From Lactobacillus sp. ESL0701 (GTDB taxonomy: Bacteria > Bacillota > Bacilli > Lactobacillales > Lactobacillaceae), in NCBI RefSeq assembly GCF_029433445.1, contig NZ_JAQTIC010000003.1:62001-126000 (forward strand): a stretch of 64,000 nt of DNA, in the 5' to 3' direction. This document shows, one piece after another, positions 13,744-20,871 of this stretch. Every line of letters starts with the position of its first letter. The first letter of the stretch is position 1. A program made the translations under genes and the position numbers. The notes under the pieces are model-generated. The model worked only from the letters and a program-made list of their open reading frames with translations. It was not told the DNA's origin and did not search any database.

Positions 13744-14946
13744 ATGACAACTTTATACACGAACTGCAATTTATTCGATGCAGAAACTGAGGAAATGCAA
13801 AATAATGCTTGGTTATTAGTAAACGATGAAGGCTTAGTTGGAGCTAGTGGCACAGGCACTGCTCCTGAAGCCGATCAAACAGTAGACTTGCAGGGGCAAT
13901 ATGTCATGCCTGGGTTAATTAATGCTCATACTCATATTATGATGGATCCGATGGATAATCACACAGCTTACTTAACGGAAACTGAAGCGACCGTCAATGC
14001 AATTAAAAACTTGAAGACTCTGTTGCGTAACGGTGTCGTGGCAATTCGTGATTGTGGTGCGGTTAGTGATACGGACGTTAAGTTAATGAAGTTAATGCAC
14101 CAAGGCAGAGTTGAAGGTCCAGAAATTGTCCCTTCTGGTAGACCAATGAGTATTTTGGGCGGTCATGGTGATTTCCCAGAAGGTGACGATGGTAAGGAAG
14201 TTTGGGGTCATTTGACTACTTGTGCTGCTGATATGCGCCAAAGCGTGCGAGAAGAATTCAAGCATGGTGCTAAGAATATCAAGGTCATGGCGACTGGTGG
14301 TGTTATGTCACCAACTGATCGTGTTGATGATACTGAGTTAACCGCTGAAGAGTTGAACGCCGCAGTTGAAGAAGCTCATTCTAAGCACATGACAGTAGCT
14401 TCACATGCCCAAGGCAATCGCGGCATCCAATTGTCGCTTGAAGCTGGTGTTGATTCGATTGAACACGGGATCTACGTTGATGAGCAACAGATGGATTTGA
14501 TGATTAAGCAAGGTACCTGTCTAGTACCAACCTTGAATGCCTGTCAATGTATCTTTGATGCGCCAAAGGGCTCAATTCCCGATTACATGATTAAAAAGGA
14601 TATTGAAGTTAAGGATATTTTCTTTAAGAATATTGGCAAGGCAATCGAGAAGGGTGTCAGAATTGTTGTTGGTACTGATGCCGGCACTCCGTTTAACCGC
14701 TTTGATAATGGGACAACTACAGAAATGGAATTGCTAGTTGAAGCTGGTGAAACACCTTTGCAAGCTTTACTTGGTGCAACTAAGTATGCCGCAGAATTGA
14801 TTCAACTTAGTGAAGATTATGGTACTTTGACTGCCGGCAAGAAGGCTGATTTCCTTGTTTTGAAGGATAATCCACTGGTTGATATTAAGGCAGTTGCTCA
14901 AGAAGATAAGCAAGTTTATCAAAATGGTAAGTTAGTAGAATATTAA
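13744..14946 (+). CDS. metal-dependent amidohydrolase, copy 1 (imidazolonepropionase/prolidase-like)
   Basis: A 400-residue amidohydrolase-superfamily TIM-barrel enzyme. Candidate metal and catalytic residues are visible in order: H62 and H64 (AHTH), K180 (IKVMATGG, the position of the bridging carboxylated lysine), H221 (SHAQG), H241 (IEHGIY) and D312 (GTDAGTP). This set matches the binuclear amidohydrolases that include Xaa-Pro dipeptidase-like and N-acyl-amino-acid-hydrolysing members. The exact substrate cannot be read. It is the most divergent of the four local paralogues: it lacks the EDKAVYKKGQRAY-type end of copies 2 and 3 and carries an extra loop before WGHLTT. The ribosome site AAGGAG lies before the ATG. 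It is followed after 25 bp by copy 2, probably in the same transcript. Confidence 0.85.
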   Translation: MTTLYTNCNLFDAETEEMQNNAWLLVNDEGLVGASGTGTAPEADQTVDLQGQYVMPGLINAHTHIMMDPMDNHTAYLTETEATVNAIKNLKTLLRNGVVAIRDCGAVSDTDVKLMKLMHQGRVEGPEIVPSGRPMSILGGHGDFPEGDDGKEVWGHLTTCAADMRQSVREEFKHGAKNIKVMATGGVMSPTDRVDDTELTAEELNAAVEEAHSKHMTVASHAQGNRGIQLSLEAGVDSIEHGIYVDEQQMDLMIKQGTCLVPTLNACQCIFDAPKGSIPDYMIKKDIEVKDIFFKNIGKAIEKGVRIVVGTDAGTPFNRFDNGTTTEMELLVEAGETPLQALLGATKYAAELIQLSEDYGTLTAGKKADFLVLKDNPLVDIKAVAQEDKQVYQNGKLVEY

Positions 14947-14971
14947 AAATAATTTTTAGGAGGTCTTTTAA

Positions 14972-16156
14972 ATGACTAAAACTGCATATACTAATATGAA
15001 TCTTTATGATGGTGAACAAGAAAAAGTTACTGCTGGTAGTTATTTGGTTGTCGATGATGAAACCGGTAAGATTACAGCAATTGGGACAGGAGCTACTCCT
15101 ACTGCCGACAAGACAGTTGATCTAGCTGGTAAATACGTCATGCCGGGGTTAATTAACTGTCACGACCACATGATTATGGATCCAGATGACCCAACTGGTG
15201 GAACGGCAACTGATGTTGTCCGGACGACTGTTAATTCTGTCAAAAACTTGCACACGATGCTGAAATCCGGCGTTACTTACGTTCGTGAATGTGGTTCAAC
15301 TTATGACGTCGATATTACAATTGCTCGCATGATTGATGAGGGTAAAATTACCAAGGTACCAGAGGTTATGCCATCTGGTCGACCATATTCAATGACTGGC
15401 GGTCATGGCGACATGCCAAACTTTGGTCACTTAGTTGATTCACCAGACGAAATGCGTAAGGCGGTTCGCCAAGGATTGAAGAAGGGTGCTAAGTCAATTA
15501 AGGTCATGGCCACCGGTGGTGTTATGACTAAGAACGACTTTATGACCGATCCACAATTGAGTGTCGCTGAAATTCATGCCGCAGTTGAAGAAGCTCACCA
15601 CAAGGGTTTGATTGTTGCTGCCCATGCCGAAGGTAATCCAGGTATTATGAATGCGATTAAGGCTGGCGTTGATTCAATTGAGCATGGTTTTTACGTTAAC
15701 GATGAAGAAATTGACCTGATGCTCAAGCAGGGAACTTACTTAACACCAACAGTTGTTGCTGACTGGGCCTTTCCAACTTACGCTGAGGGTAAGGTTCCTG
15801 ATTGGGAAATCAAGAAGGCTAGCGATGCACTTGGTGACTTGCGTAAAAATATTACTCATGCCAAAGATCGCGGCGTTAAGATTACGTTGGGTACTGATGC
15901 CGGAACGCCATTTAATGACTTTTCAATGACGCCAGTTGAATTGCAACTGTTGGCAGAACAAGGCTTCACTAACTATGAAGCCTTGAGAACCAGTGTCCAT
16001 TCTGCACAATTGATGAAGATTGAAGATGAATATGGCACTTTGGCAGAGGGGAAGTACGCTGACTTCTTGGTACTCGATGGCAATCCACTGGAGGACATTA
16101 AGGCCGTTGCCCAAGAAGACAAGGCTGTTTACAAGAAGGGCCAACGTGCATATTAA
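14972..16156 (+). CDS. metal-dependent amidohydrolase, copy 2
   Basis: 394 residues, same fold as copy 1, with all candidate metal ligands present: H64/H66 (CHDH), the lysine of IKVMATGG, the histidines of AHAEG and IEHGFY, and the aspartate of GTDAGTP. A strong TAGGAGG ribosome site precedes the ATG, 25 bp after copy 1. By eye it is clearly closer to copies 3 and 4 than to copy 1, with shared blocks such as SMTGGHGDMPNFG and SPDEMRKAVRQG. The variable barrel-loop segments (for example TVVADWAFPTYAEG) differ among copies and may set substrate choice. It ends at a strong terminator. Confidence 0.85.
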   Translation: MTKTAYTNMNLYDGEQEKVTAGSYLVVDDETGKITAIGTGATPTADKTVDLAGKYVMPGLINCHDHMIMDPDDPTGGTATDVVRTTVNSVKNLHTMLKSGVTYVRECGSTYDVDITIARMIDEGKITKVPEVMPSGRPYSMTGGHGDMPNFGHLVDSPDEMRKAVRQGLKKGAKSIKVMATGGVMTKNDFMTDPQLSVAEIHAAVEEAHHKGLIVAAHAEGNPGIMNAIKAGVDSIEHGFYVNDEEIDLMLKQGTYLTPTVVADWAFPTYAEGKVPDWEIKKASDALGDLRKNITHAKDRGVKITLGTDAGTPFNDFSMTPVELQLLAEQGFTNYEALRTSVHSAQLMKIEDEYGTLAEGKYADFLVLDGNPLEDIKAVAQEDKAVYKKGQRAY

Positions 16157-16167
16157 GCTTAATTAAG

Positions 16168-16207
16168 TAAAAACGTCTTCTTACTATAATGTAAAAAGAC
16201 GTTTTTT
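16168..16207 (+). terminator. intrinsic terminator after amidohydrolase copy 2
   Basis: The hairpin AAAACGTCTTCTTAC / GTAAAAAGACGTTTT is followed by T-residues. Copy 3 ends in a similar AAAACGTCTT hairpin, so the terminator may have been duplicated with the gene. Confidence 0.9.
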
Positions 16208-16417
16208 ATGGCTTGAAGTTTTTGAGACAGATATTTATATCAATCTATACATAAATTGTGAGTTAGCGTAAAAAATACATCACGGCTAAATCACAAGTTA
16301 TCATTAAATTTGCAGCTGTTGATAACTTAAGATTAATTGGGTAATCTGTCTCAGAATGAAAAAATGAATTAAACAAAATAGACACCAGCCACTAAAGCAG
16401 ATGTTTATTATTTTTGT

Positions 16418-16451
16418 TATAATAAAAATGGTACATGAGAAATCATGTACC
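16418..16451 (+). promoter_or_regulatory. extended -10 promoter with a stem-loop at the predicted transcript 5' end
   Basis: TGTTATAAT (TATAAT at 16418-16423 with an upstream TG) is an extended -10 box. The predicted start, near 16430, falls at a perfect 9-bp hairpin with a GAAA loop (16430-16451, stem GGTACATGA). A 5'-terminal hairpin of this kind commonly stabilises small mRNAs or RNAs. Confidence 0.6.
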
Positions 16452-16480
16452 CTATGGTTATCATGAAAGGAAGTCTTATT

Positions 16481-16567
16481 TTGACAAACCTTTTGGTGTT
16501 TGGCACTGGCTATGGGGTACACTGGCATGTACCTCGGAACGCAGTGCCTAAAAGTTCAATCTCATAG
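16481..16567 (+). CDS. 28-residue peptide of unknown function in its own transcription unit
   Basis: A TTG start lies 7 bases after AAAGGAAG; upstream in-frame ATGs at 16454 and 16463 could lengthen it. The peptide begins with a hydrophobic MTNLLVFGTGYG segment and continues with HWHVPRNAVPK, rich in His, Trp and Arg. It sits between its own promoter and 5' hairpin (16418-16451) and its own terminator (16632-16665). I do not recognise the family. It could be a type I toxin, a leader peptide, or a chance ORF in a small RNA; the ribosome site and compact unit argue that the transcript at least is real. Confidence 0.45.
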   Translation: MTNLLVFGTGYGVHWHVPRNAVPKSSIS

Positions 16568-16631
16568 CTTCGTTTCACTATCATTATTAATATCTTCATT
16601 GATATGATAACACGGATTGAGCAACTATGGA

Positions 16632-16665
16632 AGTAGCTAGACCTAGTGTGGTTTAGCTACTTTTT
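16632..16665 (+). terminator. strong intrinsic terminator of the small transcription unit
   Basis: A 12-bp stem, AGTAGCTAGACC with GGTTTAGCTACT (one G-U pair) and loop TAGTGT, followed by TTTTTG. Confidence 0.88.
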
Positions 16666-16722
16666 GTATATAAAAAATTAAGTTGGCGATTAAATTCCCC
16701 TTCAGCTTTTTGCAATTTTAGG

Positions 16723-16751
16723 TTGACATGATTAAATCATGATGATAAATT
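16723..16751 (+). promoter_or_regulatory. promoter of the T-box leader / amidohydrolase copy 3
   Basis: A consensus -35 TTGACA at 16723-16728, a 17-base spacer, and TAAATT at 16746-16751. Transcription would start just upstream of the T-box stem I. Confidence 0.75.
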
Positions 16752-16764
16752 AATTATAAATAAG

Positions 16765-17018
16765 AACATCTTGAGAAGCAGAGTAGCTATTTGCGTGTCT
16801 TTAAAGCGAGACGACATTATGATGAAAGTTGTTAGGCTAGTGATAGTGAACATGGGCTTTGAATTGGTGACTACTGGTGATATTTAGCCAGCAGCGGTGC
16901 TGCAGCCGTTATCAATGCAAGCTATTGTCAGATAGCTAGTGAGGTTTGTCGTGTAAATGGCAAACAAATTAAAGGTGGTAACACGAGCACTCGTCCTTGA
17001 ATTAGGACGGGTGCTTTT
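16765..17018 (+). promoter_or_regulatory. T-box riboswitch with terminator controlling amidohydrolase copy 3
   Basis: The T-box sequence AAAGGTGGTAACACG lies at 16971-16985, followed at once by an 11-bp terminator hairpin (AGCACTCGTCC / GGACGGGTGCT, 16986-17018) and a T-run. Stem I is recognisable: base AGTAG (16782-16786) with CTACT (16871-16875), a helix TTTAAAGC with GCTTTGAA, an ATGATGAAAG AG-bulge region, and a terminal loop GGCTAGTG. The specifier strand is TTGGTGA just before CTACT. GUG (Val, followed by A) and UUG (Leu) fit a tRNA with discriminator A, as implied by UGGU in the T-box; UGG (Trp) is a less consistent reading. Uncharged tRNA would promote antitermination and expression of copy 3. 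Confidence 0.88.
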
Positions 17019-17045
17019 TTAATTGCCAAAATAGGAGGCATTTTG

Positions 17046-18230
17046 ATGAGTAAGACAATTTTTACCAATATTAATTTATTTAATGGCAAAGATAATGAAA
17101 TTAAGGCAGGCAGTTACTTGTTGGTCGATAACCAAACGGGCAAAATTATCCAAGTGGGTTCTGGTGAGCTGCCACAAGCTGATAAGACAGTTGATTTGGG
17201 CGGCAAGTATGTTATGCCGGGATTAATGAATTGTCATACGCATATTTTTATGGATCCGACAACTCCTGATGGTGGTTCAAGTGCTGGGGTTGTTCCCTCA
17301 ACTGTCCGTGCCGTCCAGCATTTGCATGATTTGTTAAAATCTGGCGTTACTTATATTCGTGAATGCGGCAGTACTTATAATATCGATATTGAATTAGATA
17401 AATTAATTAGGGCAGGTAAGTTAAGTCGGGTACCCGAAATTATGCCTGCAGGTCATCCTTTTTCAATGACTGGCGGTCATGGTGACATGCCGAACTTTGG
17501 TCGTTTGGTTGATTCACCTGATGAAATGCGCAAGGCCGTTCGTCAGGGAATTAAAGAAGGGGCAAAAGCAATTAAGATTATGGCAACTGGTGGTGTCATG
17601 ACTGAAAGTGATGCACTAGACCAGCCGCAATTAAGTGAAGCAGAAATGCATGTGGCAGTTGAGGAAGCACACCACAAGGGCTTGATTGTTGCGGCACACG
17701 CTGAAGGTAATCCGGGAATTTTGAATGCGATTAAAGCTGGCGTGGATTCGATTGAGCATGGTTTTTATGTTAATGATGAAGAAATTGAATTGATGCTAGA
17801 AAAAGGAACATACTTAACGCCAACAATTGTTGGTGCATGGGCCTTTATTGCATATGCTCCTGGTAAGATTCCTGACTGGGAAATGGCTAAAATTTCTGCC
17901 GCTTGGAAAGATCTGCGGGGCAATATTACTAAGGCCAAAAATGCTGGCGTTAAGATTACATTAGGCACAGATGCCGGAACGCCGTTCAATGACTTCACGA
18001 TGACACCGCAAGAGTTGCCGCTGTTAGTTGAGCAAGGGTTTACCAACTTTGAAGCTTTGCAAACAAGCCTCAATGATGCTAAGTTGATGAAGATTGACAA
18101 TGAATATGGCACGTTAGAAGCTGATAAGTATGCGGACTTCTTGGTTTTAGATGAAAATCCATTGGCTGACATCACCGTAGTTGTTCAAGAAGATAAGGCT
18201 GTTTATAAGAAGGGTCAACGTGCATATTAA
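17046..18230 (+). CDS. metal-dependent amidohydrolase, copy 3, T-box controlled
   Basis: 394 residues. AGGAGG lies 7 bases before the ATG at 17046, so the adjoining TTG at 17043 is not the start. Motifs are CHTH, IKIMATGG, AHAEG, IEHGFY and GTDAGTP, all candidate metal ligands intact. It ends in KKGQRAY like copy 2. It alone has a T-box leader, so its expression should rise when one amino acid runs short. T-boxes control genes for aminoacylation, synthesis or uptake of amino acids, so this enzyme probably releases the cognate amino acid from a peptide or N-acyl form. Substrate-loop residues (TIVGAWAFIAYAPG) differ from copies 2 and 4. Confidence 0.86.
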   Translation: MSKTIFTNINLFNGKDNEIKAGSYLLVDNQTGKIIQVGSGELPQADKTVDLGGKYVMPGLMNCHTHIFMDPTTPDGGSSAGVVPSTVRAVQHLHDLLKSGVTYIRECGSTYNIDIELDKLIRAGKLSRVPEIMPAGHPFSMTGGHGDMPNFGRLVDSPDEMRKAVRQGIKEGAKAIKIMATGGVMTESDALDQPQLSEAEMHVAVEEAHHKGLIVAAHAEGNPGILNAIKAGVDSIEHGFYVNDEEIELMLEKGTYLTPTIVGAWAFIAYAPGKIPDWEMAKISAAWKDLRGNITKAKNAGVKITLGTDAGTPFNDFTMTPQELPLLVEQGFTNFEALQTSLNDAKLMKIDNEYGTLEADKYADFLVLDENPLADITVVVQEDKAVYKKGQRAY

Positions 18231-18236
18231 ATTTTA

Positions 18237-18268
18237 AAAAACGTCTTTTTCTAAAAAAGGCGTTTTTT
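18237..18268 (+). terminator. intrinsic terminator after amidohydrolase copy 3
   Basis: The hairpin AAAACGTCTTTTT / AAAAAGGCGTTTT has a CTA loop and a T-tail. Copy 4 therefore depends on readthrough or its own promoter. Confidence 0.88.
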
Positions 18269-18338
18269 ATGTTGGAGTTGTTCTCATACTTAAAAGGGAA
18301 TAAAATATACGTATTTAATAAAGAAAAAGGAGAACAGC

Positions 18339-19520
18339 ATGAAGGTTCTATACCAAAATTTAAATTTATTCGATGGTGAGCAAGATAGCATTCAAGCAAA
18401 TTCTTGGCTGGAAGTTGATGAGCAAACTGGTAAAATTGTGGCTTTGGGCAGTGGCGACGCACCACAAGCTGATAAAGTAGTCGATTTACAGGGTAAGTAT
18501 GTTATGCCGGGATTGATTAATTGTCATGACCACATGGTGATGGATCCAACTGACCCACGTGGGGTAACTGACTTTAACGTGGTGGAAACGACGGTTGATT
18601 CTGTTAAGCATTTACATGAAATGCTTAAGTCTGGAGTTACATACGTGCGTGAATGCGGCTCAACTTTTGACATTGATCTAACAATTGCACAGATGATTAA
18701 TGAAGGAAAAATTACAGATGTGCCTGACGTGATGCCATCAGGACGCCCGTATTCAATGACTGGCGGTCACGGGGATATTCCTAATTTTGGCTATGTTGTT
18801 GATTCACCAGATGAGATGCGCAAGGCAGTTCGTCAAGGCTTAAAGCGCGGTGCAAAAGTAATCAAGGTGATGACCACTGGTGGGATTATGACCGAGCGTG
18901 ACTTTATGGATGATCCGCAACTTAGTGTTGCTGAAATTAAGGCAGCGGTTGACGAGGCACATCATAAAGGGATTACGGTTGCGGCTCATGCGGAAGGAAT
19001 TGCTGGCATTATGAACGCGATTGAAGCTGGCGTCGATTCGATTGAACACGGCTTTTACGTTAATGATGAAGCCATTGATCTAATGTTAGAAAAGGGAACT
19101 TACTTAACACCAACAATTATTGCGGCATGGGCCTTTCCTGAATATGCAGCTGGGATTGCACCAGATTGGGAAATGAACAAGGCAAAGAAGGCGTTAGCTG
19201 ATTTATGCCAAAATATTGCTCATGCCAAGGATCGCGGTGTCAAAATCACATTGGGAACAGATGCTGGGACCACCTTTAACGACTTTTCGAAGACTCCCGT
19301 CGAATTGCAACTGTTGGTTGACGATGGTTTTAGTACTTTTGAAGCTTTACAAACCAGTGTAAATTCAGCCAAGTTGATGCAAATTGATGATGAATACGGC
19401 ACGTTAGCAGCTGGCAAATACGCCGACTTTTTGGTTTTGGATAATGATCCGTTAGCAGATATTAAGGCAGTTGCCCAAGAAGATAAGGCTGTTTATAAGA
19501 AGGGCCATCGGGCATATTAA
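18339..19520 (+). CDS. metal-dependent amidohydrolase, copy 4
   Basis: 393 residues, with AAAAGGAG before the ATG. Candidate ligands are intact in CHDH, IKVMTTGG, AHAEG, IEHGFY and GTDAGTT. Differences from copies 2 and 3 include ATGG to TTGG after the lysine and GTP to GTT after the catalytic aspartate, both near the active site, so its substrate may differ. The 70 bp gap after the copy 3 terminator is short; a promoter was not obvious. Specific substrate unknown. Confidence 0.85.
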   Translation: MKVLYQNLNLFDGEQDSIQANSWLEVDEQTGKIVALGSGDAPQADKVVDLQGKYVMPGLINCHDHMVMDPTDPRGVTDFNVVETTVDSVKHLHEMLKSGVTYVRECGSTFDIDLTIAQMINEGKITDVPDVMPSGRPYSMTGGHGDIPNFGYVVDSPDEMRKAVRQGLKRGAKVIKVMTTGGIMTERDFMDDPQLSVAEIKAAVDEAHHKGITVAAHAEGIAGIMNAIEAGVDSIEHGFYVNDEAIDLMLEKGTYLTPTIIAAWAFPEYAAGIAPDWEMNKAKKALADLCQNIAHAKDRGVKITLGTDAGTTFNDFSKTPVELQLLVDDGFSTFEALQTSVNSAKLMQIDDEYGTLAAGKYADFLVLDNDPLADIKAVAQEDKAVYKKGHRAY

Positions 19521-19594: not shown

Positions 19595-20605
19595 TTAATA
19601 GCCAGATAGGTTGTTTTGGGATTGTTTAAATAACTTGTTAATGGCTTCTTTAGATGTAAAGCCATAATAATTGGCAGTAGTTGTGTTATCAATTAATTTA
19701 AAAATGGCTTTTTTAAGATCTGAAAATATATATTTGTTATTGATTTTACCCATGAGTTTGACGATGATACAAATTTGCATTGCAAGAGAATTTGTATAAT
19801 TGCCATCTGGTAAGCGAAATAAAATATCCATATCTTTTTCAGAATCAAATTTAAACTCTTGAGGAACTTTGGCACGAGTACGTAATTTGAAGTCTGCTAA
19901 TAAACCATTATGGCAACAAATGTTTCTAATTAAGTTGATACTTTCTAGCCAGCTTACTAATTCATCTGTTTTACAACCAAAATAATTAGAAATTTCTTTT
20001 CTATTTGTCTTAGACATTAATTTATAAATATGAATTGTTTCGCCAAGTGTTAGTTCATTCATTAATAACCAAATAGGTGGATATACTCGTTCAGTATTTT
20101 CAACAAAGTCTTTCATATCATATGAATTAGATTTTTTAACTTTATATTGAATTTTACTTACAAAATTAGATTGCTCTTTTTCAATAGCAAATTTATCCAT
20201 TAGATGATTGTTAAGAAATTTATTTCTAGAATTTCGCTGACACCACAACCTAAATGGTAAGTAGCCATATTCACCATATTTTGTACCAATAGTGTTAGCA
20301 ATACGAGTATTTAAAGTGGTTTCAATATCTTCAATCGCATGTAAAACAGCTTGTCTAAGATGTTTATCACGATAGTATCTTGCTACTAACTCATCAAAAG
20401 AAAGATTATTATACTGTTTAGTTGAAGTGTCTAAATATGGTTTAGCATAGTTTTTAAGATTATAGTAACCAATAGTACTAATAGTCTTTAATTGCTGATT
20501 TAACTTAGTTGAATCCAGATGTGCATTTAAAGAAATATTATTGATTCCTCGAAGTTTAAATAGTGAGAGTTGATCAATGTATCTAAGGGAAATTTTATTT
20601 TTCAT
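19595..20605 (-). CDS. abiF: Abi_2 / AbiD-AbiF family abortive infection protein (HEPN RNase-like)
   Basis: 336 residues. The N-terminal RYIDQLSLFKLRGI and IGYYNLKNYAKPY blocks, the central PPIWLLMNELTLGE (about 176-189) and the HEPN motif R227-N-x3-H232 (RNICCHN) are the hallmarks of the Abi_2 family. HEPN proteins with an R-x4-6-H motif are typically metal-independent RNases, and Abi_2 members halt phage growth by killing or arresting the cell. The ATG at 20605 has no Shine-Dalgarno sequence and comes 10 bases after the T-run of an upstream terminator, so expression seems to rely on readthrough of the ncRNA transcript. Lower GC than its neighbours suggests acquisition. Confidence 0.9.
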   Translation of the reverse strand: MKNKISLRYIDQLSLFKLRGINNISLNAHLDSTKLNQQLKTISTIGYYNLKNYAKPYLDTSTKQYNNLSFDELVARYYRDKHLRQAVLHAIEDIETTLNTRIANTIGTKYGEYGYLPFRLWCQRNSRNKFLNNHLMDKFAIEKEQSNFVSKIQYKVKKSNSYDMKDFVENTERVYPPIWLLMNELTLGETIHIYKLMSKTNRKEISNYFGCKTDELVSWLESINLIRNICCHNGLLADFKLRTRAKVPQEFKFDSEKDMDILFRLPDGNYTNSLAMQICIIVKLMGKINNKYIFSDLKKAIFKLIDNTTTANYYGFTSKEAINKLFKQSQNNLSGY

Positions 20606-20614
20606 AATTGTGTA

Positions 20615-20723
20615 TAAAAAAACCTTCGCGATGGGACGTGTCCGTTAAGCGAAGGGATAGATCTTTCATTAATAATTTAACGGATAATGTATTCAAAGTC
20701 AATAATTTATTCTGCTCAATAAT
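20615..20723 (-). ncRNA. abiF-associated ncRNA with predicted H-type pseudoknot and terminator
   Basis: Read on the minus strand, a TATAAT box (plus 20730-20735) would start an RNA near 20723. Within it UCCGUUAA (plus 20677-20684) is complementary to UUAACGGA (plus 20641-20648), and CCUUCGC (20649-20655) pairs with GCGAAGG (20623-20629), followed by seven U. The two helices interleave (1-2-1'-2'), which is a pseudoknot, and the second also serves as terminator. A conserved structured RNA upstream of abi_2 genes, the abiF RNA motif, is known. RNA antitoxins of type III systems have the same promoter-RNA-terminator-toxin order. Exact ends are estimates. Confidence 0.75.
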
Positions 20724-20871
20724 AAAAATATTATACAATACTAGAATAGAAATTACAGTATCTTAGTTAATAAGAAAAAATGATATTTAAAACTCGAGAA
20801 TCTTGCTTTGATTTGGTAAATTCTCTTGCTTTTTTAGCAGATAGTTTCATAATTGTAACAAGAAAAATAAG

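Follow-up and report, generated by a model that had tools for sequence, protein, structure and literature searches.

An AbiF-type HEPN locus of Lactobacillus sp. ESL0701 with a terminator-embedded RNA, and copies of the RNA family without a toxin gene

The window analysed here, a stretch of 64,000 nucleotides (64 kb) from Lactobacillus sp. ESL0701, carries on its minus strand a promoter, a small RNA gene that ends in a terminator, and a HEPN protein gene (Table 1).

Table 1. Features of the ESL0701 abiF locus, in window coordinates
Feature	Position	Strand	Basis
abiF/abiD-group HEPN toxin gene (Abi_2)	19595..20605	minus	Pfam, PADLOC and PDB 8vz6 matches
HEPN motif codons R227-N-I-C-C-H232	19910..19927	minus	motif conservation; alignment to PbAbiF
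Gene of a small RNA (about 52 nt), a predicted antitoxin or leader	20616..20667	minus	models R2 and R1
Unpaired 5′ leader GAAAGAUCUAUC (...UCAAUC in the family consensus)	20656..20667	minus	alignments A13–A15
Outer stem, 5′ arm CCUUCGC	20649..20655	minus	fold; two-sided changes in family model
Inner hairpin GGA-CACG-UCC	20634..20643	minus	fold; alignments; CAGRUACGUYCUG equivalent in relatives
Outer stem, 3′ arm GCGAAGG	20623..20629	minus	fold; covariation
U7 tail of intrinsic terminator	20616..20622	minus	sequence; 10 nt ahead of start codon
Promoter TTGACT-17-TAAATT of RNA and gene	20674..20702	minus	position conserved over 41 loci
Pseudoknot 5′ arm UCCGUUAA of the earlier note	20677..20684	minus	within promoter, probably not transcribed

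The gene, a reading frame of 336 aa in the ORF list of the window, encodes a genuine AbiF/AbiD-group Abi_2 protein, as an earlier note on this DNA had proposed. Residues 41–235 match Pfam Abi_2 (PF07751) at E = 2.5e-42, with 145.7 bits against a cut-off of 25.6 for membership, and the PADLOC AbiD profile matches at E = 1.3e-38; an NCBIfam search at E up to 1 returned nothing for the protein. Across the ESL0701 genome (1.63 Mb), protein matches to AbiF occur at one place only. By sequence, the sole PDB match is 8vz6 (E = 8.5e-15), the PbAbiF dimer of Prevotellaceae with its non-coding RNA, and the same entry is the sole PDB match below 0.001 when an AlphaFold2 model of the protein (9-sequence alignment, pLDDT 86.5, pTM 0.83) is searched with Foldseek (E = 3.3e-13, TM 0.67/0.75). 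This match spans the length of the protein at 23% identity in the fold alignment, a likeness at the protein level.

The R-x4-H motif of HEPN ribonucleases is intact as RNICCH, with R227 and H232 as the earlier note read them. In the sequence alignment to 8vz6 these two residues fall on PbAbiF residues 210 and 215, whose double mutant is reported to be inactive (PMC12373285, in the part of that paper available). Among 48 tabulated AbiF-clade loci, the ESL0701 copy counted with them, the pattern RN.C.H is intact in 45, the exceptions being RIVCCH in L037, a stop within the motif in L044 and a partial gene at a contig end in L048. With an R-x4-H motif set in a modelled HEPN fold, the protein is predicted to have RNase activity. 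No Shine-Dalgarno sequence is seen by eye ahead of the start codon, again in agreement with the earlier note.

Upstream regions of AbiF homologues mostly begin with a TTGACA-16/18-TATAAT promoter, followed by a short UCAAUC leader and a closing stem of 7–9 bp that contains one or two hairpins and runs into a series of U residues. The ESL0701 RNA is a reduced version of this plan. It folds as the nested hairpin CCUUCGC[GGA(CACG)UCC]GCGAAGG, in which the outer stem doubles as the terminator, so that the structured part is a 33-nt hairpin merged with the terminator; the first inner hairpin of the family is missing, as it is in L003 and L006, and the remaining one reads CAGRUACGUYCUG in many relatives and GGA(CACG)UCC in ESL0701. 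Model R2, described below, recognizes one RNA unit at the locus. The seven-U tail that the earlier note had described is present and ends 10 bases ahead of the ATG. Folded as a single sequence, the 53-nt stretch 20668–20616 forms the nested hairpin at −12.7 kcal/mol, a value equalled by 10 of 200 shuffles, and a simple terminator scan restricted to loops of 3–8 nt does not include this hairpin.

The 5′ end of the RNA was placed from its promoter. The best promoter has at least 10 of 12 matches in 29 of the 41 loci compared (against 3.9% of shuffles), at least 9 in 35 and at most 8 in the other 6, and in 29 of those 35 the −10 box ends 6–8 nt ahead of the RNA start. Because of this regular spacing we place the start of the ESL0701 RNA near 20667, although TTGACT-17-TAAATT taken alone is at chance level in a pattern scan (3 sites against 2.5 in shuffles). 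The comparison thus gives an RNA of 52 nt rather than the 110 nt or so of the earlier note.

To ask whether the fold is conserved, we relied on alignments made with covariance models, since sequence-only MAFFT alignments misplaced the stems (RNAalifold retained just 4 pairs on one of these, A2). Three RNAs from two other genera, the near relatives L003 and L006 not among them, gave model R1, whose best match in the window is the ESL0701 RNA (E = 0.0092 in a search of 296,651 bases; the match after it has 1.7). Model R2, built from 25 RNAs with L003 and L006 included and ESL0701 and L011 excluded, finds it with filters off at E = 9.4e-6 across the 64 kb, where the match after it has 0.063; all these E-values are rough by the tool's own statement. 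The RNA has the leader, outer terminator stem, inner hairpin and U tail of the R2 family.

In alignment A13 (25 sequences, from which a tighter E-value had dropped one match that resembles a plain terminator, L066:1214-1251), 92.3% of cells pair, two-sided changes occur at 15 of 17 pairs and covariation scores 0.500, where shuffles give 0.197. Alignment A15, with 36 RNAs partnered by AbiF (35 distinct, ESL0701 included), has two-sided changes at 17 of 17 pairs and a score of 0.539 against 0.209, which 0 of 500 shuffles reached. All nine pairs of the outer stem in the family model show two-sided changes. As covariance-model alignments lean towards the modelled structure, we give a second control besides the shuffles: sliding the partners by 1–3 columns lowers covariation to at most 0.114 on both A13 and A15. 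This covariation, together with detection by a model built without ESL0701, supports the terminal hairpin and the inner GGA/UCC helix as more than chance.

The family extends well beyond ESL0701, and often lacks a toxin gene. R2 matches occur in 17 of 75 genomes of the genus (E up to 0.5) and, at E up to 0.01, in 32 of 397 genomes of the family Lactobacillaceae, at 34 places. A protein profile (E up to 1e-20) finds AbiF in 30 genomes of a family draw of equal size (397), and the RNA adjoins the gene at the R2 threshold in 15 of them; of the other 15, 11 have a UCA-type leader and a terminator hairpin by eye, L053 has a different-looking hairpin, and L033, L035 and L036, all of one genus, have no recognizable RNA upstream of AbiF. 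L033 is open with RNICCH intact; L035 and L036 have internal stops.

Conversely, among the 35 Lactobacillaceae loci retrieved from the genus and family R2 searches (a count of retrieved loci, not of every listed place), AbiF is present at 16, and no trace of it is seen within about 1.5 kb at 19, the downstream sequence being limited to 746 nt at L093 and 272 nt at L100. Among the 19 is L106, which resembles a plain terminator and is probably a false match; without it, 18 of 35 remain. In the syntenic relative L011 (G049:C1:538477-541692), the flanks align to the ESL0701 locus at 81–83%. About 750 bp of its toxin gene are missing (about 19821–20576 in window coordinates), the HEPN motif within them, yet its RNA matches the ESL0701 RNA at 45 of 45 positions, against 108 of 148 for the upstream spacer, and the promoter is kept as well. 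The loss of the toxin with retention of the RNA can also be read as plain decay caught midway. A blastn search with the orphan region of L107 returned no phage record. As a separate observation, in L088 and in L122, which share the RNA and adjoining sequence, a toxin-less AbiF-type RNA is followed by mazEF-like genes, identified by eye from the L088 ORF translations.

Viral contigs also contain both arrangements. A pattern scan yielded 59 loci, and 33 of them are confirmed by R2 (E up to 0.05); these are not all independent, since several scores are identical. An AbiF match accompanies 18 of them (two match only the first 57 residues) and 15 have none; the contig of one of these, L126, ends 25 nt past the RNA, so 14 of 33 are counted as toxin-less. 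When viral contigs are entered from the protein side, the RNA lies upstream of AbiF at seven of eight loci, and the eighth begins at the coding sequence. Phage Javan149 has both kinds, the partnered L066 and the toxin-less L175; the latter lies upstream of the terminase and overlaps a gene annotated as a 47-aa hypothetical. Of 19 toxin-less loci scanned with ARAGORN, 7 have tRNA or tRNA-like genes, and Rfam finds such sequence in 3 of 7. A phage activator gene (phrog_248) lies upstream in L096 and L097, the latter also with a terminase small subunit downstream; the RNAs of L098 and L100 come after an endolysin gene, and that of L094 lies close to a repressor. Toxin-less stretches in phage or viral contigs are L155, L125, L136, L139, L131, L127, L129, L152, L174 and L175; two streptococcal phages have such RNAs upstream of terminase genes, and several stretches lie beside tRNA-like sequence.

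Copies without AbiF retain compensatory base changes and the same loop. In 31 toxin-less copies (30 distinct; 18 from Lactobacillaceae, 13 viral; alignment A14, made without L122, L126 and L106, the last for its plain-terminator look), covariation is 0.590 against 0.202 in shuffles, a score reached by 0 of 500. Nine phage copies, drawn from 11 sources of which L176 and L177 gave no match, score 0.274 (0.135 in shuffles), and 6 of their 16 pairs have two-sided changes; that their inner hairpin is invariant is in part a product of the search pattern. In neither the 31-copy nor the nine-copy set does the number of further pair types exceed that of shuffles (67/500 and 416/500). Changes that predate the loss of the toxin could contribute to the covariation in toxin-less copies.

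An AbiF protein with an upstream RNA antitoxin is a published kind of system. In Clostridioides difficile, AbiFCd is toxic, and the RNA RCd22 binds it and neutralizes it in cis and in trans (PMC12373285, in the part available). The likeness to ESL0701 lies in an Abi_2/AbiF HEPN protein with an RNA directly upstream and a terminator before the gene, and extends to the sigma-A promoter and co-transcription reported there. The RNAs differ: RCd22 transcripts of 88–132 nt hold two abiF motifs and a separate terminator (PMC12373285), with which the phage phiC2 stretch agrees by eye, whereas ESL0701 has one unit of about 52 nt whose outer stem is the terminator. The Rfam abiF model (RF03085), against which the earlier note had suggested a check, gives no match in the window even with the limit raised to E = 10, and 36 related loci are likewise without one (19 searched at E up to 0.5 and 17 at E up to 1), while it detects the RCd22 region of phiC2 with 37.6 bits; membership of the ESL0701 RNA in RF03085 is thereby ruled out. 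It is equally silent in 75 genomes of the genus, a search in which the named controls gave no match either. On this covariance-model comparison, the ESL0701 RNA family is distinct from Rfam abiF. Since it is a single terminator-embedded unit without an RF03085 match, unlike RCd22, we regard ESL0701 as a variant of a known system.

In Lactococcus lactis, a 50-nt transcript ends at a terminator just upstream of abiD1, which encodes a protein of the same group; the regulation reported there differs, being translational activation by phage Orf1 and cold (PMC2661086, in the part available). ToxIN and other type III toxin–antitoxins share the order promoter, RNA, terminator, toxin, and differ in toxin structure and in the repeated motifs and pseudoknots of ToxI (PMC12373285), where ESL0701 has a single nested hairpin. 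At ESL0701 the RNA lies directly upstream on the same strand with a terminator between RNA and toxin, as in type III loci, and tandem RNA repeats, also typical of these, are absent. Cas13 effectors combine two HEPN domains with a CRISPR array. They have been traced to defence ribonucleases, and Cas13an is a proposed descendant of the HEPN AbiF group (PMC12165695, in the part available), to which the ESL0701 protein is likened on its HEPN homology; both PbAbiF–AbiFr (Zilberzwige-Tal 2025) and the descent of Cas13 are taken here from the available parts of PMC12373285 and PMC12737573. Homology, conserved layout and published relatives support the type III-like order and the Cas13 link that the earlier note had proposed.

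What is established at ESL0701 is the identity of the gene, its fold, the intact catalytic motif, the promoter–RNA–terminator–gene layout and a conserved, covarying RNA fold. We interpret the locus, with a probability of roughly 0.78, as a chromosomal AbiF-type toxin–antitoxin or abortive-infection module with a terminator-embedded RNA antitoxin; toxicity, RNase activity, binding, neutralization and a phage trigger would follow from the behaviour of characterized relatives. A housekeeping promoter would drive an RNA of about 52 nt that mostly stops at the terminator formed by its own outer stem, and occasional read-through would yield a toxin mRNA without a Shine-Dalgarno sequence. The abundant RNA would bind the AbiF dimer and block its HEPN RNase site until phage infection or stress tips the balance, by lowering the RNA or favouring the toxin, whereupon AbiF would cleave RNA and growth would stop. 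The AbiFCd/RCd22 and abiD1 precedents (PMC12373285 and PMC2661086, in the parts available) argue for this interpretation, as does the loss of the toxin while the RNA stays (L011, and 19 of 35 loci without AbiF, the doubtful L106 among them). Against it count the AbiF loci without a recognizable RNA (L033, L035 and L036), the single unit outside RF03085 in place of the two motifs of RCd22, an RNA that appears only moderately stable by single-sequence folding, and the report that a translation reporter did not rise when the abiD1 terminator was removed (PMC2661086).

The hairpin might instead be solely a transcription attenuator that limits read-through into a toxic gene, the RNA having no antitoxin activity. 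Its outer stem and U7 do form a terminator, and read-through control has been reported for abiD1 (PMC2661086) and for RCd22 in cis (PMC12373285). An attenuator, however, needs no conserved CAA leader, UACGU loop or inner helices and leaves unexplained why copies are conserved without any toxin gene, and RCd22 also acts in trans (PMC12373285); we consider this alternative unlikely. Those many copies without AbiF would suit a stand-alone regulatory or phage RNA that lies ahead of abiF by happenstance in many genomes, a view made highly improbable by its position upstream of AbiF in several genera and phages, including the viral-contig loci found by protein search (7/8).

The earlier note had pictured a different RNA, transcribed from a TATAAT box and folded into two perfectly complementary, interleaved helices, UCCGUUAA/UUAACGGA and CCUUCGC/GCGAAGG. 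The letters are exact: TATAAT stands at 20735–20730, UCCGUUAA at 20684–20677 and UUAACGGA at 20648–20641, both helices are letter-perfect in ESL0701 and in the orthologue L011, and L011 retains the TATAAT. A Watson–Crick 8/8 upstream partner for the UUAACGGA arm arises in only 1 of 500 shuffles for ESL0701 and 0 of 500 for L011, and the orphan orthologues L081 and L082 can form 7/8 Watson–Crick pairs (reached by 16 and 18 of 500 shuffles). However, UCCGUUAA falls within the spacer of the conserved TTGACT-17-TAAATT promoter and extends into the start of its −10 box, and we reject the TATAAT as the promoter of the RNA in favour of this one. The UUAACGGA arm overlaps the inner hairpin common to relatives, and in the other 7 of 11 short-type loci its partner is at chance (174–496 of 500 shuffles; 53–489 with G–U pairs). 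Among 1,000 dinucleotide shuffles made from the 161-nt region, 338 contain some 8-mer complementary pair, as do 103 of 397 window tiles. In A7, an alignment of five close loci, the two varying pairs of this helix only break, with two-sided changes at none; as 6 of its 8 pairs never vary, A7 alone cannot exclude a pseudoknot. Of the compensatory changes sought in both helices, CCUUCGC/GCGAAGG shows them in the family alignments and UCCGUUAA/UUAACGGA shows none in these close relatives. The interleaved pairing is best read as chance, and a 110-nt pseudoknotted RNA from the TATAAT is scarcely credible. Thus, from the earlier note the gene, the motif, the strings and the terminal hairpin stand, as do the type III-like reading and the Cas13 link, while the pseudoknot, the upstream promoter and the size of the RNA do not.

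A sister Abi_2 clade, represented by L012, L013, L014, L015, L022 and L024 of Lactobacillus and by L070 of phage IPP38, has upstream an RNA of another kind, whose terminator is separate and in which a helix AGAG/CUCU (by eye, unclear in L013) is interleaved with a helix GCGGNNN/NNNUUGC. In the latter, 98% of cells pair across the seven sequences and covariation is 0.483 against 0.249 (1/500 shuffles); 2 of its 7 pairs have two-sided changes, a number also reached by 227 of 500 shuffles. The six Lactobacillus loci have no Rfam match at E up to 0.5. This RNA is a candidate pseudoknot antitoxin, and an interleaved two-helix structure may occur there, though not in the clade of the ESL0701 gene.

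The ESL0701 locus represents a variant of an already described system, and the main lead lies in the toxin-less, covarying copies (18 of 35 loci in Lactobacillaceae, 14 of 33 in viral contigs), which are the new element of this work; a literature search, mostly at title and abstract level and covering few subscription papers, returned no description of toxin-less AbiF RNAs. Together with the retention of the RNA in L011, they support an antitoxin role and suggest phage-borne mimics. They raise two questions: is the RNA sufficient to protect against AbiF, and do phages employ it as counter-defence? Tentatively, and at rather less than even odds, we propose that the RNA family is mobile and leads two lives, one as an antitoxin of AbiF in cis, the other as a decoy without a toxin gene, borne by phage or prophage, that would neutralize host AbiF in trans. 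The positions beside tRNA-like sequence upstream of terminase genes, or after endolysin, would be the settings of such a decoy, a part of the proposal that we hold just as tentatively. The analogy is with pseudo-ToxI of phage PhiTE, a precedent for RNA mimicry directed at ToxIN (PMC3475682, in the part available), and the lytic cyanophage S-CREM1 is listed with an Rfam abiF RNA in an account whose available part contains no counter-defence reading of it (PMC9964418). Variation among AbiF RNA antitoxins, such as that of the ESL0701 clade, which the Rfam model misses, matters for the origin of guide RNAs because AbiF with its RNA is the proposed ancestral state of Cas13.

Other features were seen near these loci. 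A DUF3800-I RNA (Rfam RF02969) lies at L039:3431-3549, about 1 kb downstream of the AbiF gene. In the window, the plus strand of 13744–19520 holds four mutually similar ORFs in tandem, of 393–400 aa and amidohydrolase-like by eye, with a T-box leader at 16762–17001 ahead of the third.
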